Positions 2,145-26,710 of a stretch of DNA of 30,574 nt are shown here, in pieces. The notes under the pieces are model-generated. The model had not been told where the DNA came from and did no database searches. It saw nothing but the letters and a program-made list of their open reading frames with translations. The DNA lies in IMG/VR virus record IMGVR_UViG_3300043437_000592, positions 1 to 30,574 of that record; one strand, given 5' to 3'. Position 1 is the first letter of the stretch. Every line of letters starts with the position of its first letter. This DNA is from a virus. Both the position numbers and the translations under genes were made by a program.

Positions 2145-4645
2145 TGGCAAAAAAGATAGTTCTCGAGCTCGAGACAAAAGCAGACGGTACGATTGGCACG
2201 CTGGATCAGATAGCTGCAGGTCTCGACCGTGTAGCTGCATCGGAAAAAAAGGTCTCAGACAATACTCAAGACGTCACCGAGCAGCTCGCAAAGTTGCGCG
2301 AGCAAATCCAGCAAACAGATGTTAACAGCGACCAGTATAAAGAACTGACAGAGCAGTACAAAAAACTGGGTGGTTCGCTCACCGACTTGGTGCCAAAGAC
2401 TGCGAACCTTAAACAGGAACAGCGTGAACTTCGCAAGGCACTCCTTGCAGGTCAAGAAGCACTTGGCACGGAGAAGTACACCCAGCTCACGCAGCGACTG
2501 GGTGAGGTCAACGACCAGCTGAAGGACATTGCAGAGAGCGCAGGTCAAAACGCAGGACCGCCACTTGAGAACTTGCAGTTGATTACCGGTGGACTTGGAG
2601 ACAGGCTCAAGAACCTTGACTTCGACGGCTTGAATCAAGACATCCGCAACCTTGCAGGTAACGTCAAGAACTTTTCATTCAAAGCACTGATTGATGGTGT
2701 CAAAGGACTTAAGGCTGGATTTCAAGGTTTAGGACAAGCGCTAAAAGCAAATCCAATCTTTGCCATTGCTGCTGCCATTATAGCCATCGGTCTGGCTGTT
2801 AAAGCATTTATTGACTCGGAACGGGAGAATGTTCAAAAGCTCAACGAAGATATAGACAAAGGCGCAACACGCCGCAAAGATGCCGAGCGTCTATCATTTG
2901 CGCAGGCCGCAAATAACTCTCAGAAACTAACAGAACTACGACTGCAGTCAAATGCAAAGGACCTCAACGATACACGCACAAAGATTAACAATCTTGTGAA
3001 CCTACAGCGCAGTTACGTGGGGCTCAGCGAAGATCAAGAAAAGGAGTTAGCAGATCTGCGTGAGAAATACCGGTCGCAGGAAATCGACCGTGAAATTATA
3101 AAGATCGAAACACTTAACGCACTCAATGCGCAACGTATTGATTTGCAGACCCAGTTCGAACAACGTAACCTTGACGATCGTGCACTCGCTGAGGCTCAGT
3201 TGACGAATGAGTTCATCAAGCAGAAAGACGAGCTGGAAAAGTTAGGAGCCACAGCTGAGGACTTTGAGAAGCTGGACGAGGTCTTTGCGACTCGCTTCCA
3301 GAAACTACGTAAGGGCTTTGCTGATACCGACAAGGCAGCGGCCCAGTCTCGTGCTGATGCAGCAAAGGCAAGACAAGACGCATTTATTGAACAGCAAAAG
3401 GCTGCAGGAGAAGCAATACAAGCAGCACAAAAAGAATTTGAATCACGTAACAAGACAGCACAACAGAATGAGCTGGACGCGGTTGCTGAGAAGTATAAAA
3501 ATCTTAAAGAGCAGGCTGAGAAGGCAAAGGTCGACACTACTCAGATTGTCGAACTGCAAGGCAAGGAGGAGCAGGCCATCCGGGACAAGTATGCTAAGCA
3601 GACACTCGACCTTATTAAGCAAGCGAACGAGGAGCAGAAAGCGGTTCTGGATGCCTTAGCACTTGAAAACGAAACAGCACAGAAAGGAGCGAAGCAGGCC
3701 GAACTTGACGCACTTGGAGAAGAATACTTTGAGAAGATAACGCTCCTTGAGGATGCCGAAATGGATGCCACAGCACTGCGCGAGGAGTGGGAGAAGAAGC
3801 GCCAAGAGATTACAAACAAGTATGCTGAAGCAGACAAGGAAAAAGAAAAGGAACGTCAGCAGGCGATCTTGATTGCGCAGAATGCTGGTCAAACCGCCAG
3901 AGCACAAGCGCTAAACAATGAACTGGCTGCACTCAAGGCAGACTATGACGCACGCATAGCACTGGCGAAAAAATACGGGCAGGACGTGTCAGCACTTGAG
4001 GCAGAGTATACTGATGCTGTTAAGATAAAAAGAACTCAAGCGGCAGCCGAGACGATTCAAATGTGGGCCGATACAGCCAATCAAGTAATCAATGCTTTGG
4101 CCGCTGTCAATGAGGCCAAGGCCGAGGAGCTTGGCAAGAAGCTAACGGACATCGACAAGGAGATTGAAAACGCACGAACTAAAGAACAACGTGCTGAACT
4201 TATCAAGCGTCGAAAAGCACTAGAACAAGAGCAGCGTGCGGTATTCGAAAAAAATAAAAGAGCACAAGTCGCCGCCACTATTGTGACCACAATCGCATCA
4301 GCAACAACGGCATTTGCCTCGCAGTTAATACCGGGAGACCCTACCTCACCAATTCGTGGTGCGGTGGCTGCTGCTGCTGCTTTAGCTGCTGGTTATGCAA
4401 ATGTGAGAAAAATAGAGCAGACTCAATTTGAAGCATCTCAGCCACCATCAAGTTCTGGCATACCTGATTTTAATGGAGGAGGTGGTGATAATGGAGAAAG
4501 CACTGCGCCTCAGTTTAATCCTCTTGTGCTGGACTTTCTTAAAAACAGACCGGATCAGCAAACGCCTCGCGCTTATGTGCTCGCTGGTGACGTTGAGAAG
4601 GCGACGCAGGCACGTGACCGGGTTGAGGAGCTGGCTCGATTATAA
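2144..4645 (+). CDS. Tail tape measure protein
   Basis: The product has 833 residues. This is the longest complete gene in the window, as expected for the protein that sets siphovirus tail length. The N-terminal 200 residues are helical. A hydrophobic segment lies near residues 204-223 (NPIFAIAAAIIAIGLAVK). A very long Lys/Glu/Gln/Ala-rich coiled coil runs from about 230 to 700, and a second Ala-rich hydrophobic stretch lies near 705-750. The C-terminus contains the PRAYVLAGDVEKA segment that I recall as typical of tape measures in Bacteroidota phages. The gene overlaps the upstream 58-residue gene by TAATG. Identification rests on length, helix and coiled-coil architecture and neighbours. 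Long ORFs in other frames here are by-products of the repetitive Lys/Glu codons. Confidence 0.88.
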   Translation: MAKKIVLELETKADGTIGTLDQIAAGLDRVAASEKKVSDNTQDVTEQLAKLREQIQQTDVNSDQYKELTEQYKKLGGSLTDLVPKTANLKQEQRELRKALLAGQEALGTEKYTQLTQRLGEVNDQLKDIAESAGQNAGPPLENLQLITGGLGDRLKNLDFDGLNQDIRNLAGNVKNFSFKALIDGVKGLKAGFQGLGQALKANPIFAIAAAIIAIGLAVKAFIDSERENVQKLNEDIDKGATRRKDAERLSFAQAANNSQKLTELRLQSNAKDLNDTRTKINNLVNLQRSYVGLSEDQEKELADLREKYRSQEIDREIIKIETLNALNAQRIDLQTQFEQRNLDDRALAEAQLTNEFIKQKDELEKLGATAEDFEKLDEVFATRFQKLRKGFADTDKAAAQSRADAAKARQDAFIEQQKAAGEAIQAAQKEFESRNKTAQQNELDAVAEKYKNLKEQAEKAKVDTTQIVELQGKEEQAIRDKYAKQTLDLIKQANEEQKAVLDALALENETAQKGAKQAELDALGEEYFEKITLLEDAEMDATALREEWEKKRQEITNKYAEADKEKEKERQQAILIAQNAGQTARAQALNNELAALKADYDARIALAKKYGQDVSALEAEYTDAVKIKRTQAAAETIQMWADTANQVINALAAVNEAKAEELGKKLTDIDKEIENARTKEQRAELIKRRKALEQEQRAVFEKNKRAQVAATIVTTIASATTAFASQLIPGDPTSPIRGAVAAAAALAAGYANVRKIEQTQFEASQPPSSSGIPDFNGGGGDNGESTAPQFNPLVLDFLKNRPDQQTPRAYVLAGDVEKATQARDRVEELARL

Positions 4646-4731: not shown

Positions 4732-5310
4732 ATGAAAAAACCGAATGGAAAGAAAGTTATGAAATGCACCATTGACGATAACATGAAACTTGGCGTGCAG
4801 GCAATTTCGCTTGTGGAGTTTCCTGCTATCGAGGAGAATTTCATTGCATTGTCAAACGTTAAGCTCAGCGCAGTTGATGCTGAACGCCGTATGTTATATG
4901 GTCCTGCTTTAATACCGGACAAGTATATCTTGCGCATTGATCCTAAAACAAAAGAGGAGTATTACATCTACTTCGAAAAGGAAACGGTGTACAAGTGCGC
5001 ACACAAATTCATGATGGAGAACCTCCAGCACAAGCACACGATGGAGCACAAGTATGACTTGACCGGTTGCACTCTTGTTGAGTCGTGGCTCGTAGAAGGC
5101 GAGAATGATAAAAGCAGACATCTTGGTATTGACGTGCCAGTGGGAACGTGGATGGCTGGCACCTACGTGCAAGACGACGAGGTCTGGGACCGTGTTAAAG
5201 ACGGCAGTGTGCGTGGCTTCTCAATCGAGGGAGTATTCGATAACGTCAGCACTGATTTAAGCAAGGAAGACGTCTTTGTCGAGGCTCTCATAGCTGCGTT
5301 GAGTGAATAA
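4732..5310 (+). CDS. XkdF-like prohead maturation protease (S78-type)
   Basis: This is a 192-residue protein that matches the pattern I know for XkdF-type putative phage serine proteases. A GPALIPDK segment near residues 57-64 is followed by a histidine cluster (HKHTMEH, about 100-106), then VESWLVEG with a candidate nucleophilic Ser near 118, and then GWxx/VRGFSIEG-like sequence near 160-167. In head assembly such enzymes cleave scaffold and capsid precursors inside the prohead. It lies upstream of the scaffold-like and capsid genes, as expected, but an inverted cassette separates it from them. A promoter-like element precedes it and a strong hairpin terminator follows directly. The exact catalytic residues are inferred by analogy with HK97-type proteases. 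Confidence 0.82.
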   Translation: MKKPNGKKVMKCTIDDNMKLGVQAISLVEFPAIEENFIALSNVKLSAVDAERRMLYGPALIPDKYILRIDPKTKEEYYIYFEKETVYKCAHKFMMENLQHKHTMEHKYDLTGCTLVESWLVEGENDKSRHLGIDVPVGTWMAGTYVQDDEVWDRVKDGSVRGFSIEGVFDNVSTDLSKEDVFVEALIAALSE

Positions 5311-5338
5311 AAAAAGGGAGCACGTTTGCTCCCTTTTT
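5311..5338. terminator. Bidirectional rho-independent terminator
   Basis: A perfect 12-base stem (A5 GGGAGCA paired with TGCTCCC T5) closes a CGTT loop. The T-run follows on the plus strand and the A-run gives a T-run on the minus strand, so it can end both the rightward XkdF-like gene and the leftward protease/DUF1508 cassette that converge on it. It begins at the last base of the XkdF-like gene. Confidence 0.88.
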
Positions 5339-5355
5339 ACACACTAAACACTACA

Positions 5356-5532
5356 CTACAAGGAGCGATCGTCGACTTTGCTTTCGGCAGCGTGCTCCAT
5401 GATTCGTTTGATGGCTGAGGTGCAGCTTTGCTTTTTTTTCATCGTCTCACTGGTCAGCATTATTTGACCATTGCGGCTGCTTACTACATAATAGTACTGG
5501 CCGTCATCTGATTTGTAGATTGTGAACTTCAT
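5356..5532 (-). CDS. DUF1508/YegP-like small protein (58 aa)
   Basis: The gene starts at an ATG overlapping the stop of the protease gene (ATGA) and encodes 58 residues. The sequence has the signature of the DUF1508 (YegP) domain: an N-terminal FTIYKSDDGQYYYVV strand pair, then NGQIMLTSE, then a helix containing a Ser/Thr-Ala-Ile turn, and a final SKVDD. DUF1508 proteins are small alpha/beta proteins of unknown biochemical function, often found in tandem copies; here there is one copy. Its coupling to a subtilisin-like protease is the only functional hint. It might be a chaperone, substrate or modulator of the protease, but this is speculation. It stops just before the shared terminator. Confidence 0.75.
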   Translation of the reverse strand: MKFTIYKSDDGQYYYVVSSRNGQIMLTSETMKKKQSCTSAIKRIMEHAAESKVDDRSL

Positions 5533-7592
5533 GATATTAATATTGAGGCTTCGTTGTTTGCTGCGTTGGTATCAGTTGCACCGTTGACCTGCGTTATCTT
5601 GATCCGGAAGGTGTTCGGTAAAGTTCCCCACATGCTTGACGGAAACACTGAACTCATCGCTCGCTCTTGATTTGGCAAATACGTCTCTGACCTGCTCCAT
5701 GTAAGTTGACTGCGACCATCAAATCCGACGAGAGCCTTGAGGCTTGTCACGTTTACATTTCCCACGTTTTTGAAGGCATAGTTCACGCGCACGCGAGTGG
5801 CATCAAGGAAAGTATAGCCAGTGATGCGAACGCTCAGGTCAGCCGTGCTCGATGGAGGTGCAACCTGCACGACATTGATTGGAGTCTGTGCATAGTTGTC
5901 GAACTCATTCCCTTCAGCGATTTGATTACTTAAGTCAATGTTCATGATGTACTCACACATGCCACTGATATTATTAGGCAGCACGTGGGTCGTGGTCATC
6001 GTTGTGATTTTCGTGCCTGCTTTGATAATCACCTCGCCAGTGTAGAAGTCATTGAGCGTTCCGTTCGATGCCTTAAAGCGCAGGAGCACTGGCACCTTTG
6101 TATCGATAGTCGGTGCGTTGTCCATGTTGACCGTATATGTGACGGTCACGCTGGCTCCTTGATTAGCTTGTGCAGGCGTGCTGATAACTCCGTAAAAATT
6201 AATCACCGGAGCAGGTGGCGGTGGTGGGTCGATAGGGTCTGTGCCTCCGGATTGTAAAACCGCTGCATACATGTCAACAACACCAAATCCGAGCTCCGCG
6301 CTTTTGCCATTGGCATCGTATACGTAGCCGCCTGTCTTTCGTGCCGAGTTCTTGAGTATTTCGCGAAGTTGTGGCTCGGTAAGTTCGGGGTTTTTCACCA
6401 GTACAGCTGCCGCGATTGCTGCCATCACCGGGCACGCTGCTGATGTTCCGGAGAAGTTGGTGTAGCTGCTTGTCGCATTATATCCAGACGCCCCAGTACG
6501 GTCAACCGTTGGGCATGATGTTCCGGGTGTTGCAGCGAAGAGCTTCGTGCCGTAGTTGCTGAATGGTGCGCGAGTGTTTGATGGTGTGCTGGCACCGACT
6601 GCGATGACTGAGTCGTAGATGGCTGGGTAGATGCCTATGCTGGACGAGTAGTTGTTACCACTTGAAGCGAACAGAGGCATACCCTTTCCACCGCGTGCGC
6701 TTACACGTGCTGCGTTGAGCGCGTTGAGGAAGTTCGTGTACCCTGTACCCGTGCCGCCCCATGACATGCTCACCGCTACGCATCGAGGGTTTTCGACTGC
6801 CTTGTTAATGGCACGCGTCACAATGGTGTCAGACGTTTGAAAGCTGCCACCAGAAGAGCTGTTATATCCGATGTGTAAAAATTGCACCTTCACGCGATTG
6901 CATCCTAAACCTGTTACTCCGACTCCATTATTTGCTGTTGCGCAAATCAGACCTGAGCAAGGTGTACCATGTTTTTCATTTTCAGAAATCGGACGGACAT
7001 CAGCGGCATTGGTGACGCAGTTCCAACTGGCAGAGCTTATCATTCCTGTGAGGTCTTCATGGTCAACCTCGCAGGCAATATCAAGCACAGCAACGTCGGC
7101 AGCATAACCATCCGGAAGTAGTGACCATGCTTCGGCTGCTTTCAAGTTTCCGAGATGCCATTGTTGTTCGTAGGTGTACCCATCAGCATTCGTCTCCACT
7201 TTCTGAATGAAGTCAGGCTCGATTGACTGGAAGGCTGGCTTGTATATCATGAGCATGTCGTACATGTCATCGAAGCTCTGACCGTCTGGGAGCTGTGCGA
7301 TAATTGTGCGCGATTGCTCGAACTTGTCAACGATGGGCATGTTCATTTTTTTGAGAGTGTCCTGCGCGAGTTTCCAATCATTCGCAATGCAGATGACCAG
7401 ACCCGTGCTGATGGAGTCAAGTGTTGCGTCGATTGTGTTGACGTGTGAGACCTTTTTCTTGTCCACCGGTACTGGCTGCTCATCTGCAAAGACGATAATA
7501 CCAAATGGCTCATGTACTTCGACCACGTTTGCCTTGACCTTGTTTTTGTCAAAGCTCGCTCGATCCTTGAATTTTACGGAGTTGAGTTTCAT
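5529..7592 (-). CDS. Subtilisin-like (S8) serine protease with C-terminal CARDB-like domains
   Basis: The product has 687 residues. After an N-terminal region of about 150 residues with no evident signal peptide, possibly a propeptide, the S8 catalytic domain spans about 160-445. Its triad is visible: Asp171 (VAVLDIACEVDHEDL), His208 (EKHGTPCSG) and Ser384 (SGTSAACPV), with oxyanion Asn near 313 (SSGNN). A Pro-rich linker (DPIDPPPPPAP, about 452-462) joins two Ig-like repeats at about 463-575 and 584-687. These resemble CARDB adhesion modules and end in characteristic Asn-rich strands (EGNEFDNYA; TNAANNEAS). All catalytic residues are intact. The gene runs against its structural-gene neighbours from its own promoter, so it looks like an acquired cargo gene (moron). 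It could cut host surface proteins, a capsid component or competing phage proteins. Confidence 0.9.
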   Translation of the reverse strand: MKLNSVKFKDRASFDKNKVKANVVEVHEPFGIIVFADEQPVPVDKKKVSHVNTIDATLDSISTGLVICIANDWKLAQDTLKKMNMPIVDKFEQSRTIIAQLPDGQSFDDMYDMLMIYKPAFQSIEPDFIQKVETNADGYTYEQQWHLGNLKAAEAWSLLPDGYAADVAVLDIACEVDHEDLTGMISSASWNCVTNAADVRPISENEKHGTPCSGLICATANNGVGVTGLGCNRVKVQFLHIGYNSSSGGSFQTSDTIVTRAINKAVENPRCVAVSMSWGGTGTGYTNFLNALNAARVSARGGKGMPLFASSGNNYSSSIGIYPAIYDSVIAVGASTPSNTRAPFSNYGTKLFAATPGTSCPTVDRTGASGYNATSSYTNFSGTSAACPVMAAIAAAVLVKNPELTEPQLREILKNSARKTGGYVYDANGKSAELGFGVVDMYAAVLQSGGTDPIDPPPPPAPVINFYGVISTPAQANQGASVTVTYTVNMDNAPTIDTKVPVLLRFKASNGTLNDFYTGEVIIKAGTKITTMTTTHVLPNNISGMCEYIMNIDLSNQIAEGNEFDNYAQTPINVVQVAPPSSTADLSVRITGYTFLDATRVRVNYAFKNVGNVNVTSLKALVGFDGRSQLTWSRSETYLPNQERAMSSVFPSSMWGTLPNTFRIKITQVNGATDTNAANNEASILIS

Positions 7593-7622
7593 GTGTGTAA
7601 ATTTAGAGCACGAACTTCGTCA

Positions 7623-7654
7623 CAAATTTACCACGTTTGGGGGAATGTTTTCAA
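7623..7654 (-). promoter_or_regulatory. Promoter for the leftward protease/DUF1508 cassette
   Basis: On the minus strand TTG (7654-7652), a 21-base spacer and TAAATTTG (7630-7623) match the Bacteroidota -33/-7 consensus exactly at the conserved positions. The protease ATG is about 30 bases downstream. Confidence 0.65.
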
Positions 7655-7683
7655 CATAGAGTCTTTTCTGCAAACATCAAAAC

Positions 7684-8313
7684 ATGAAAGGACAGATTGC
7701 ACAAAAAGTGCGCGACATCTTCCAGTCATTCAATATTAACCCGAAAGACATCTTCCTTGAAGAGGAGGAGGTTCAAATGGAGATTGAAGGCAAGCTCGCC
7801 GACGGTACCGTTATCTTCTCGAGTGCTACTGAATGGGCTGCAAGTGCTGACGTGTACACAAAAGACGAAACCGGTAACGCGGTGCCAGTTCCAGCAGGAG
7901 ACTATACTCTCGAAGATGGTCGCCTCGTTGTAATTGGAGAAGATTCAAAGATTGTAGAAATCAAAGAAGGCGAAGCTGAGGTTGAAGATGAGATGCCGCA
8001 AGACATGTCGAGCGACGATCTTCTAAAGACCATCGAGAGCTTGGGTGCTCGCGTTTCTGCTCTTGAGAATCAAAACAATGAACTGCTTAGCCAGCTCAGT
8101 GCAGCAAAAGGTGAAAGTGCTAACAAGGACGTGGAGTTGTCTTCTGTAAAAAAGGAACTTCAAGCCATCAAGCAGTCACCAGCAGTGGACAGCATCAAAT
8201 CAAAGCGAACTGAGGTAGCTCTTTCTCGCGACAACAAAGAAATCAAAGAAAAAACGTACTCTGCCATGACCGTGCAGGAGCGCGTGAATCAATACCTATC
8301 AAAAATAAAGTAA
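7684..8313 (+). CDS. Scaffold-like acidic head-assembly protein
   Basis: The product has 209 residues. It is strongly acidic in the middle (runs such as LEEEEVQMEIEG and EAEVEDEMPQDM), with a predicted coiled coil at about 115-165 (LESLGARVSALENQNNELL type heptads) and a basic, charged C-terminus. The gene lies 4 bases upstream of the major capsid gene, the usual site of scaffold or capsid-delta-domain genes, and follows the maturation-protease region. Together these suggest a scaffolding protein that would be removed by the XkdF-like protease. The N-terminal 100 residues look like a compact beta domain, which is not typical of simple scaffolds, so a decoration or head-fibre role cannot be excluded. 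Confidence 0.6.
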   Translation: MKGQIAQKVRDIFQSFNINPKDIFLEEEEVQMEIEGKLADGTVIFSSATEWAASADVYTKDETGNAVPVPAGDYTLEDGRLVVIGEDSKIVEIKEGEAEVEDEMPQDMSSDDLLKTIESLGARVSALENQNNELLSQLSAAKGESANKDVELSSVKKELQAIKQSPAVDSIKSKRTEVALSRDNKEIKEKTYSAMTVQERVNQYLSKIK

Positions 8314-8317
8314 AGAC

Positions 8318-9223
8318 ATGGCAACAACCGTAGACAACACAACAAACTACTCGGGTAAATTCGCCGGGGAGTACATCAAAGCTGCGTTTTATGCAAACGA
8401 AAGCTTGCAGGCAATCACCGTTAAAGAAAACATCGAGTACCGCGCAGTGGTGAAGAAGATCGTGGACAACGTGACCTTCGCAGACGCAACTTGTGCTTTC
8501 TCACCTACTGGTGAAATCACAATTAACGAGCGCTACTTGACGCTAAAGAAGCTGCAGTTCCAGCAAGAAGTCTGCAAGAATGAGTTCTTGAATGACTACA
8601 TCGCTAAGGACATCCAGAACGGATCACTTGGTAGCGCTTTGAATGATGCAATCATGAGCACCATGCTTGCTGGAATCTCTCAGAACAATGAAAACTTGCT
8701 CTGGACAGGTAATGGTGCAAACGCTGGCGAGTACGACGGACTTCTCCAGTTGATTGGTGCAGACGCTGACAACGACATCAACTTCGTTGCAACTCCAGTA
8801 GCTATCACAAGCGCAAACGTTGTATCGAAAGTTCAAGCGCTTATTGCTGCTACTCCTCTTGCAGTTAAGAAAGCATCTGAGAAGCCAGTAATCTTTATGA
8901 GCTACGACGTTTGGGAGAACTACATGTACGCACAGCTCGGCACTGGCTACGCTACGTATTTGACAACTGGACCAGAAGTTCAAAAGACCTTCATGGGCTT
9001 GTTCAAAATCGCAGTTTGTCCGGGCATGCCTGCCAGCACAATGCTGATGGCGCAGCCTTCGAACTTGTGGTTCGGTACTAACCTAGTGAGCGACTGGAAT
9101 AACGTGCAGGTCGTAGACATGGGTCAGTGGGCTGAGGACAACGTTCGCTTCAGTGCGAAGTTCTTCGCTGGCACTCAGTATGGCATCGGTGCAGACATCG
9201 CAGCCTACTCAACTTGGTTCTAA
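8318..9223 (+). CDS. Major capsid protein
   Basis: The product has 301 residues, a normal length for an HK97-fold shell protein without a delta domain. The helix-rich start (FAGEYIKAAFYANESL), the central EVCKNEFLNDYIAKD region, and the Gly/Ala/Asn-rich segment followed by long strands fit capsid proteins of Bacteroidota phages as I know them. Supporting context: the scaffold-like gene lies 4 bases upstream, the portal and connector lie downstream, and a GC-rich hairpin with a TTCG loop follows directly, as is common after genes that need high expression. Codon choice is notably uniform (AAC, GAC, AAG, GCA), in keeping with strong translation. The fold assignment is by context and general resemblance, not by a diagnostic motif. 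Confidence 0.8.
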   Translation: MATTVDNTTNYSGKFAGEYIKAAFYANESLQAITVKENIEYRAVVKKIVDNVTFADATCAFSPTGEITINERYLTLKKLQFQQEVCKNEFLNDYIAKDIQNGSLGSALNDAIMSTMLAGISQNNENLLWTGNGANAGEYDGLLQLIGADADNDINFVATPVAITSANVVSKVQALIAATPLAVKKASEKPVIFMSYDVWENYMYAQLGTGYATYLTTGPEVQKTFMGLFKIAVCPGMPASTMLMAQPSNLWFGTNLVSDWNNVQVVDMGQWAEDNVRFSAKFFAGTQYGIGADIAAYSTWF

Positions 9224-13095: not shown

Positions 13096-13679
13096 GTCAA
13101 GACACCGACAAGCCAGAAAAGAGGCGCCTTGGCGAACGCATCCGGGAGTCGAACTTTGGAAAGTTCGTCCGCGATCGTGTCAAGCCAGTGGCTGGTGACA
13201 TTCTTGAGGTGGTTGGAGACGTGACTGGCATACAAGCGATCGAGACCGTCGGCGCTCTTATCAATGGTCGCAAGGATCAGAATGACGAGTACAAAAAGCT
13301 ATGGCTGGACTTCGAGCGCTATCGTCTGGAATGGACGCTTGAGATGCACAAGATTGATATTCAAGCCGAGCTCGACTCTTATAAATCAGAAGTCGAGGAC
13401 AGGGTCAGCGCTCGTATACGTGAGGCCGACTTCGTTAAGGCTACAGGAAAGAGGGACTGGCTCATGGGCGCAGTGGTTATTACCGGTCTGGTCCTGCTTG
13501 TGGGTACAGTCCTCTCTCTTATTTTTATTACCATACCAACCGAGAACCAGCGTCTTGCCGACATGTGCTTCGGTGCGATCATGTCGATCGGTGCGAGCAT
13601 CTTCTCGTACTACGTCGGAAGCAGTCGTGGCTCTATGGTCAAGGATCAAACAATTCAAGCATTAAGCGGTGGCGAGTAG
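13092..13679 (+). CDS. Second holin-like membrane protein (3TM/GTA-holin type)
   Basis: The product has 195 residues. The N-terminal 110 are soluble and charged, with an amphipathic region (about 30-60, VAGDILEVVGDVTGIQAIE) and a helical stretch rich in Glu/Lys/Arg. Two transmembrane helices follow at about 122-146 and 156-178, and the end has the motif SYYVGSSRGSMVKD. That architecture and ending match the family annotated as three-TM holins for gene-transfer-agent release. It starts in an ATGA overlap with the first holin-like gene and overlaps the endolysin start by 11 bases, so the three lysis genes form one coupled unit. Confidence 0.65.
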   Translation: MSQDTDKPEKRRLGERIRESNFGKFVRDRVKPVAGDILEVVGDVTGIQAIETVGALINGRKDQNDEYKKLWLDFERYRLEWTLEMHKIDIQAELDSYKSEVEDRVSARIREADFVKATGKRDWLMGAVVITGLVLLVGTVLSLIFITIPTENQRLADMCFGAIMSIGASIFSYYVGSSRGSMVKDQTIQALSGGE

Positions 13680-14052
13680 AACAATCACCGACTGCCACTG
13701 GAAGCTCCGCCGCGTGTGGATGAACTGCTCTCGTATTTGGGAGGAGAAGTATCCCGCCGGTCCGACCGTGTTTCTGACCTGCACCTACCGGTCAAACGAG
13801 GAGCAAGCAGAACTTTATGCACGTGGGAGGACGTCACCCGGAAAGATAGTAACCTACATCAAGGCGAACGGCAAGCACAACGTGTATCCTGCGCTGGCGT
13901 TCGACATAGCTTTCAAGGACAAGAAGGGTGTTGCTCTATGGGACGGGGTCTACTTTAAGCGTTTCGCTGCCATCGTCAAGGAGCAGTATAAGGATGTCAC
14001 ATGGGGCGGTGACTGGGAGAAGCTGCGCGACATGCCGCATTTTGAAATATAA
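13669..14052 (+). CDS. M15-family endolysin (peptidoglycan peptidase)
   Basis: The product has 127 residues and starts at GTG, 11 bases inside the preceding gene. It is a compact zinc peptidase of the VanY/L-Ala-D-Glu type. The substrate-groove motif TCTYRSNEEQAELYARGR lies at about 37-54, the first zinc His is near 70 and the Asp near 79 (GKHNVYPALAFDIAF), and the final DMPHFE carries the third ligand His near 124 with Asp121 alongside. All ligands are present. It would cleave the stem peptide of peptidoglycan once the holins open the membrane. There is no signal peptide, as expected for a holin-dependent endolysin. The short N-terminus means there is no separate cell-wall-binding domain. 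Confidence 0.9.
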   Translation: MASRTITDCHWKLRRVWMNCSRIWEEKYPAGPTVFLTCTYRSNEEQAELYARGRTSPGKIVTYIKANGKHNVYPALAFDIAFKDKKGVALWDGVYFKRFAAIVKEQYKDVTWGGDWEKLRDMPHFEI

Positions 14053-25391: not shown

Positions 25392-25535
25392 ATGCCTATA
25401 CCAAAACCCAAACCCAACGAGCAGCGCGACGAGTATATCGGACGCTGTATGTCTGACCCTAAAATGATGACAGAGTACACAGACTCAAAACAGCGCTACG
25501 CCATTTGCATCAACACATACCAAGAACAAAAATGA
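25392..25535 (+). CDS. Small Pro/Gln/Met-rich protein (47 aa)
   Basis: This ORF encodes 47 residues. It starts 2 bases after the preceding stop and overlaps the methyltransferase start by ATGA. Pro/Lys repeats at the start (PIPKPKPNEQRDEYIG) lead to a short Cys/Met helix and RYAICINTYQEQ, a segment I associate with tiny proteins placed before protease or portal genes in phages. Function unknown. Its exact fit between two genes supports its reality. Confidence 0.65.
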   Translation: MPIPKPKPNEQRDEYIGRCMSDPKMMTEYTDSKQRYAICINTYQEQK

Positions 25536-26710
25536 ACAGCACTCTGACCCCTCTGGCCCAGATCAAGGCAAACCCAAACAACCCGAGAACCATCAAGGAC
25601 GTCAAGTTCAAGAAGCTCGTCGAATCCATCCGGACCTTTCCAAAGATGCTGGAACTGCGTCCCATAGTCGTCAACGATGACATGGTTGTCCTCGGAGGCA
25701 ACATGCGCCTGAAGGCATGCAAGGAGGCAGGCATCAAAGAGGTACCGGTTATCAAGGCCAGCGACCTTACCGAAGATGAACAGCGCCAGTTCATTATAAA
25801 GGACAACGTCGGCTTCGGCGACTGGGACTGGGACATGCTCGCAAACGAATGGGACGTCGCCGAGCTTGACGAATGGGGCATGGAGCTTCCCAAGGACATG
25901 TTCGGCACGGATAACGAGGTGGTCGAAGATGAGGTTCCCGAGATACCCGAGGAGCCAGTCACCAAGCCCGGTGACCTTTGGATCCTTGGAAACCATCGTC
26001 TGCTGTGCGGTGATTCCACAAACACCCAGCACGTCGATCGCTTGATGAATAAAGAGCAGGCGGACCTGATCTTCACGGACCCACCTTGGAACGTGAACTA
26101 TGGCGCCGTCGAAAAGAACAACGCACAAGGATACAAGCCTCGAACCATTCTCAATGACCACATGGACGACGACGAGTGGGACGAGTTCGTCGCAGGGTTT
26201 TGTGCCAGCTTCTTTATTGCATCCAAGCCCGGTGCACCCATCTACGTGGTGATGTCAGCACAAGAGTGGCCATCGCTCCAGTTCAATCTTCTCAAATCCG
26301 GATTCCACTGGTCCTCGACGATTATTTGGAAGAAGGACCGCCTCGTGATGTCGCGCAAGGATTACCACACTCAGTATGAACCTATTTGGTATGGGTGGAA
26401 CGACAAGGCGCCTCGCTTAGTTCAAGTCGAAGATCGCAAGCAGTCCGACGTATGGGAGGTGGCACGTCCGAGCGTATCGGAGCTACACCCAACCACGAAG
26501 CCAGTCGAACTGGTCGCCAGAGCCTTGAACAACTCCTCCAAGGCAGGCGGCCTCGTCCTTGACCTGTTCGGCGGTTCCGGGTCCACCATGATTGCCTGCG
26601 AGCAAACGGGGCGCAGGAACTGCAGCATGGAGTTGGATCCTAAGTACTGCGACGTCATCGTCAAGCGTTGGGAGAACCTCACGGGCCAGAAAGCCATCCT
26701 TGAAAAATAG
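25532..26710 (+). CDS. ParB-domain/DNA adenine-or-cytosine methyltransferase fusion
   Basis: The start is the ATG overlapping the previous stop (ATGA), giving 392 residues. The N-terminal 90 residues form a ParB-type nuclease/CTPase-like domain (LAQIKANPNNPRT at 8-20; PIVVNDDMVVLGGNMRLKA at about 44-62). A linker rich in Asp/Glu (about 123-145) leads to a beta-class N4/N6 methyltransferase: DPPW (183-186) as catalytic motif IV, then the cofactor motif DLFGGSGST (344-352) and NCSMELDPKYCD. Motif order IV before I marks the beta class. No restriction enzyme gene adjoins it, so it most likely protects phage DNA or alters gene expression. The ParB-like part may locate the enzyme on DNA. The substrate base and site are unknown. 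Confidence 0.9.
   Translation: MNSTLTPLAQIKANPNNPRTIKDVKFKKLVESIRTFPKMLELRPIVVNDDMVVLGGNMRLKACKEAGIKEVPVIKASDLTEDEQRQFIIKDNVGFGDWDWDMLANEWDVAELDEWGMELPKDMFGTDNEVVEDEVPEIPEEPVTKPGDLWILGNHRLLCGDSTNTQHVDRLMNKEQADLIFTDPPWNVNYGAVEKNNAQGYKPRTILNDHMDDDEWDEFVAGFCASFFIASKPGAPIYVVMSAQEWPSLQFNLLKSGFHWSSTIIWKKDRLVMSRKDYHTQYEPIWYGWNDKAPRLVQVEDRKQSDVWEVARPSVSELHPTTKPVELVARALNNSSKAGGLVLDLFGGSGSTMIACEQTGRRNCSMELDPKYCDVIVKRWENLTGQKAILEK

Follow-up and report, generated by a model that had tools for sequence, protein, structure and literature searches.

The window analyzed here is the entire IMG/VR virus record IMGVR_UViG_3300043437_000592, a stretch of 30,574 nt. It contains a plus-strand block of tape-measure-like, XkdF, scaffold-like, capsid, and portal genes. 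As originally predicted, two coupled minus-strand genes, encoding an S8 subtilase and a DUF1508 protein, lie between the XkdF-like protease gene and the scaffold-like gene. The features of this locus, including the parts of the S8 protein, are the following:

4732-5310, plus strand: XkdF-like head maturation protease (Peptidase_S78_2; PF14550, E 2e-18), left of the slot
5311-5338, both strands: bidirectional intrinsic terminator, common to the XkdF operon (plus) and the cassette (minus), from folding
5356-5532, minus strand: DUF1508 protein (YegP/UPF0339-type), 58 aa, single repeat (PF07411, E 1e-10)
5529-7592, minus strand: S8 subtilase, 687 aa (PF00082, E 4e-36)
5529-6201, minus strand: S8 aa 463-687, two predicted beta-sandwich (CARDB-like) domains past a Pro linker at aa 451-462 (structure model)
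6243-7158, minus strand: S8 aa 145-450, subtilisin catalytic domain with D171/H208/N313/S384 (profile, PDB search, and model)
7203-7412, minus strand: S8 aa 61-130, putative I9-like prodomain, beta-alpha-beta-beta-alpha-beta (secondary structure of the model)
7428-7592, minus strand: S8 aa 1-55, conserved domain at the N-terminus (majority identity of ~90% in aa 1-20)
7604-7683, no strand assigned: leader/promoter region of the scaffold operon, part of the backbone and retained in occupied and empty slots (alignment of sister flanks)
7684-8313, plus strand: scaffold-like coiled-coil protein, right of the slot (second half of phrog_24921; present in all sisters)
8318-9223, plus strand: probable major capsid protein, used as backbone marker (phrog_1623, virion structural protein, E 2e-7)

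The S8 and DUF1508 open reading frames overlap by 4 bp (ATGA) at the S8 stop codon. At the left end of the cassette, the proposed shared terminator was confirmed as a hairpin that folds on each strand (-17.4 and -17.8 kcal/mol, z ~ -6); it belongs to the phage backbone and is present in several sister phages with and without cargo. On the right, the exchanged segment ends immediately left of the leader region of the scaffold operon. The two genes flanking the slot correspond to the first (XkdF) and second (scaffold-like) parts of PHROG 24921. They thus resemble a protease-scaffold unit in split form, and the insert divides what some phages have as one protein. The base composition of the S8 gene does not deviate from that of its surroundings (GC of 0.502 compared to 0.484 for the window).

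The exact-match promoter reported upstream of the S8 gene was not recovered. The site there (7654-7625, minus strand) matches the sigma-70 consensus at only 9 of 12 positions, and the sole match at 11/12 is internal to the S8 gene. Promoters of the Bacteroidota type follow the consensus TTTG-N17-23-TAnnTTTG. An exact match to this motif does not occur in the window. As the promoter of the cassette was not confirmed, expression in the window's clade could be early. Additional genes were observed elsewhere in the window. A minus-strand gene at 15268-16116 matches phrog_424 (phosphoadenosine phosphosulfate reductase) and is likely a recent arrival (GC of 0.38 compared to 0.484 for the window), an N6/N4 DNA methyltransferase fused to a ParB-like N-terminal domain is encoded at 25505-26710 (plus strand), and a 127-aa protein that reads as M15-type peptidase-like is encoded at 13669-14052 (plus strand). 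The latter is perhaps the endolysin of the phage; the CHAP-like endolysin of S8 relatives is absent from the window.

In order to compare the slot among close relatives, we gathered the window's clade by searches with the capsid and XkdF proteins; some of the records are near-copies (L058/L071 and L066/L067 were grouped), and slot counts are therefore not all independent. The slot is empty, with 73-180 bp between the flanking genes, in L056, L059-L062, L065, L068, L069, and L074-L079. A different minus-strand gene, encoding a protein of ~355 aa (P355), occupies it in L058, L063, L066, L067, L071, L072, and L080, and in L064 a shorter form of P355 is followed by DUF1508, again on the minus strand. 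The most direct comparison is provided by L058, the backbone of which is very near that of the window (90% identity for XkdF and 93% for the major capsid protein). In a right-flank stretch of some 88 bases that reaches ~7604, the two sequences are ~90% identical, and the cargo of L058 is P355 (6202-7275, minus strand), not S8. None of the 24 sister records, which may be fragments, carries S8, P355 is absent from the window, and the two do not co-occur in the window and its sisters. For P355, the usual occupant of the slot in these sisters, searches of Pfam, PHROGs, NCBIfam, PDB, and named phages returned nothing, and its structure model is poor (pLDDT of 50). As the slot is either empty or holds alternative cargo, and S8 and P355 are never found together, it takes exchangeable cargo. 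The comparison thus supports the gap between XkdF and scaffold as a cargo site of the close sisters with four states: empty, P355, P355 with DUF1508, and S8 with DUF1508. A misassembly of the cassette is unlikely, because a minus-strand cargo gene with DUF1508 was found independently in the L064 slot and the sister contigs match both flanks of the window.

The S8 assignment is supported by a PF00082 score of 125 bits (cut-off of 21.8). The catalytic residues D171, H208, and S384, which had been described as an intact triad, are all present together with the oxyanion residue N313. Among the homologues that cover these sites, D, H, and S are invariant and N313 differs in one, so degradation of the triad was not observed. 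Purifying selection on S8 appears strong, with a median dN/dS of 0.079 over 103 pairs, a value obtained with the simple NG86 method from pairs that are not independent. These data support S8 as an accessory protease with an intact active site, and the original proposal of a cargo protease stands, given an accessory gene, intact catalytic residues, and a slot that exchanges cargo in sisters.

The predicted domains around the catalytic core were taken mainly from the AlphaFold model (pLDDT of 82, pTM of 0.51); at this pTM the relative placement of the domains is unsure. Solved subtilisins superimpose on the model with a TM-score of ~0.86 (target-normalized) and an rmsd of ~3.3. The prodomain region has no Pfam I9 hit and would be assigned to this family by its modeled fold. 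Past the Pro linker, the model contains two beta-sandwiches (~465-575 and 585-686), in agreement with the two modules originally described, but their CARDB identity is less certain: CARDB (PF07705) was detected in one stretch only (E 0.008, 16.8 bits), under the Pfam cut-off of 22.7. We thus treat both the I9 and the CARDB identities as inferences from structure. No signal peptide was recognized when the sequence was read by eye, the N-terminus MKLNSVKFKDRASFDKNK being without a hydrophobic core. In a scan with the N-terminal domain only, an S8 domain always follows, except at contig ends, and the domain was not found on other enzymes.

S8 belongs to an uncharacterized, phage-specific subtilase family. 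A search covering 84,980 bacterial and archaeal species, each represented by a single genome, revealed no close homologue, the best match having 27% identity. The S8 protein of an uncultured Caudovirales phage (BFVD A0A6J5R7S5) is plainly a member of the same family (52% identity over the full length), the entry being named by domain only and without described function. PHROG 3677 (“protease”) and S8 proteins known from other phages, such as those of Bacillus phage vB_BcoS-136, Synechococcus ACG-2014e, Lactococcus AM4, and Moorella MTATph1, likewise contain a subtilase domain but differ in their N- and C-terminal parts and are only 12-32% identical. Within the limits of its wording and coverage, a search of the open-access literature found no paper on this S8 family. 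By sequence profile, the nearest PDB entry is mirolase (8ehe), whereas the top fold match is fervidolysin (1r6v), which has the same order of prodomain, S8 domain, and two C-terminal beta-sandwiches. Compared to fervidolysin, with which it shares 19% identity, the window S8 is phage-encoded, has no recognizable signal peptide, and carries an additional conserved N-terminal domain of ~55 aa.

Members of the S8 family were also found in more distant phages. In a lineage with a capsid protein ~42% identical, S8 likewise resides in the gap between XkdF and scaffold, but on the sense strand in 59 of 59 distinct loci, and it overlaps XkdF by ATGA in 53 of the 54 loci with a readable XkdF. The inverted orientation emphasized in the original prediction therefore does not extend to these relatives, while it does apply to the cargo of the window's clade; placement on the opposite strand is typical of that clade's slot, not of the protease. 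A NikA-like ribbon-helix-helix gene of 43-60 aa, possibly a local regulator, follows the sense S8 on the minus strand in 58 of the 59 head-slot loci (for example L003:10175-10306). In eleven further loci, S8 either has tail-fibre-like genes on one side and a holin-like gene with a putative endolysin gene on the other, or is located just past the endolysin; these neighbours were named by reading and by homology among the loci rather than by family hits. Tandem arrays were observed as well, with six S8 paralogues in L233:694-14017, between tail-fibre-like genes and holin-like and putative endolysin genes, and five in L234:186-11408, between tail-fibre-like genes and a putative endolysin gene. 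Both arrays directly precede the putative lysis genes. The array paralogues comprise 683-838 aa, and D/H/N/S are intact in 11 of 11. In L218:2488-4555, S8 is in two pieces (2488-3828 and 3857-4555), which may reflect a frameshift, a genuine break in the gene, or an error of sequencing. The coupling to XkdF and the tail-fibre, holin, and endolysin neighbours in these relatives suggest late expression.

In a careful tree built after thinning, one clade (support 100/99) unites 20 of the 21 head-slot S8 proteins and excludes the window S8, which falls outside on a long branch with a low support of 73/41 for its position. Additionally, the S8 of L029 (4008-6047) has a head-slot position but groups with S8 proteins of lysis modules, and a monophyly constraint on all head-slot S8 proteins was rejected (AU test, p 0.005). 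The grouping of L029 and the rejected constraint indicate that S8 moved between contexts. The slot occupants may still share descent, with a later inversion in the window, but given its sisters an independent arrival of the window S8 in the slot is the simpler explanation. An in-place inversion of a sense-strand copy was not adopted, as the head-slot clade excludes the window S8, the position of which is poorly supported, and the sisters hold minus-strand cargo or nothing. The host of the window phage is probably a member of the Bacteroidota, since the nearest named phages are phages of Flavobacteriia: Nonlabens phage P12024L by capsid (30%) and Flavobacterium phage 11b and Cellulophaga phage phi10:1 by terminase (44%).

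What the protease might do is best accounted for, in our view with roughly even confidence, by a phage pro-subtilisin in a swappable slot that is produced late as a zymogen and acts outside the cytoplasm on surface proteins. The gene, the slot, and the exchange of cargo are established by the comparisons above; according to this model, a phage-specific pro-subtilisin would have entered, in minus-strand orientation, an exchangeable slot that already existed between head protease and scaffold. The enzyme would be made late in infection, its putative prodomain keeping it inactive in the cell. Sec export would not be needed for it to reach its substrates, as it could be set free at lysis or travel attached to the virion. 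The beta-sandwich domains might then hold it to surface material, and the S8 domain might trim surface proteins, whether on host cells or on cell debris, thereby aiding release, spreading, or adsorption. DUF1508 would be a small passenger of the slot and no partner of the protease.

A more specific version, in which the N-terminal domain anchors the enzyme to the head or tail of the virion and host surface proteins are digested at adsorption, appears possible but is the less probable reading. The private N-terminal domain is conserved like the active site, the distant relatives couple S8 translationally to XkdF, and tail-fibre-like genes are among the neighbours; however, the N-terminal part may just be a propeptide, and the S8 gene is dispensable in sisters.

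It is improbable that the cassette is a lysogenic moron that alters the surface of the lysogen, for example in superinfection exclusion. Similarly to phage morons, it is a sporadic gene in sister phages, is carried on its own strand with a terminator at its end, and is flanked by genes that are adjacent in sisters. In contrast to morons, its GC content is backbone-like and several cargoes use the one slot; as to a promoter of its own, the sequence offers the 9/12 sigma-70-like site. Furthermore, the absence of a close homologue from the bacterial and archaeal genomes searched means that no prophage carrier is known, and S8 has no recognizable signal peptide that would carry it to the cell surface while the lysogen is alive.

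An accessory role in capsid maturation, with S8 assisting XkdF in the processing of scaffold or head proteins, would agree with the protease-scaffold position in two lineages and with the ATGA coupling to XkdF. We nevertheless regard it as very unlikely, because the catalytic-type residues H106/E117/S164 of XkdF are retained in 105 of 105 homologues, whether S8 is present or absent, and sisters with the same backbone are without S8. Moreover, elsewhere S8 accompanies lysis and tail-fibre genes and occurs in arrays, and the prodomain and beta-sandwiches would better fit an extracellular enzyme. A replacement of XkdF function by S8 was rejected on the basis of the same intact XkdF residues.

The original prediction had drawn attention to the pairing of S8 with DUF1508, and this part did not hold. 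The DUF1508 assignment itself is sound (PF07411, 41.7 bits, cut-off of 22), with YegP (2k8e), 2k49, 2k7i, and 3bid as PDB relatives. YegP consists of two repeats, and the UPF0339/DUF1508 family is without known function; the window protein differs from YegP in being a single 58-aa repeat. None of the 25 other S8-bearing records screened contains DUF1508, and among 44 related records screened it was found in L064 only, which lacks S8 and in which it is coupled to P355. The 58-aa query retrieved nothing from viral contigs. The pairing was thus seen once and is incidental. That the two form a functional pair, e.g. a protease with its inhibitor or chaperone, is most improbable despite the 4-bp overlap in the window, as DUF1508 is missing from all 25 other S8-bearing records and the clade's other copy adjoins P355.

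The main finding is the slot together with the protease family. Phage subtilases and moron-like cargo are known kinds of elements, and the arrays add interest. The slot is a clear example of one site, between head protease and scaffold, at which different cargo genes replace one another. Phage tail enzymes are known to attack polysaccharide coats, and proteases aimed at surface proteins are far less studied. We tentatively entertain the broader idea that S8 represents a dedicated family of late subtilases, widespread among Bacteroidota phages as a means of infection or release, whose N-terminal domain perhaps docks to the virion and which moves between head slot and tail-fibre/lysis positions, with arrays in some phages. 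If this were true, the arrays of five or six different intact proteases would look as if they covered different surface proteins, and their diversification would parallel that of tail fibres for receptors. Overall, the intact catalytic sites, strong constraint, repeated amplification, and late or lysis-associated positions of the S8 family make its role directly testable.
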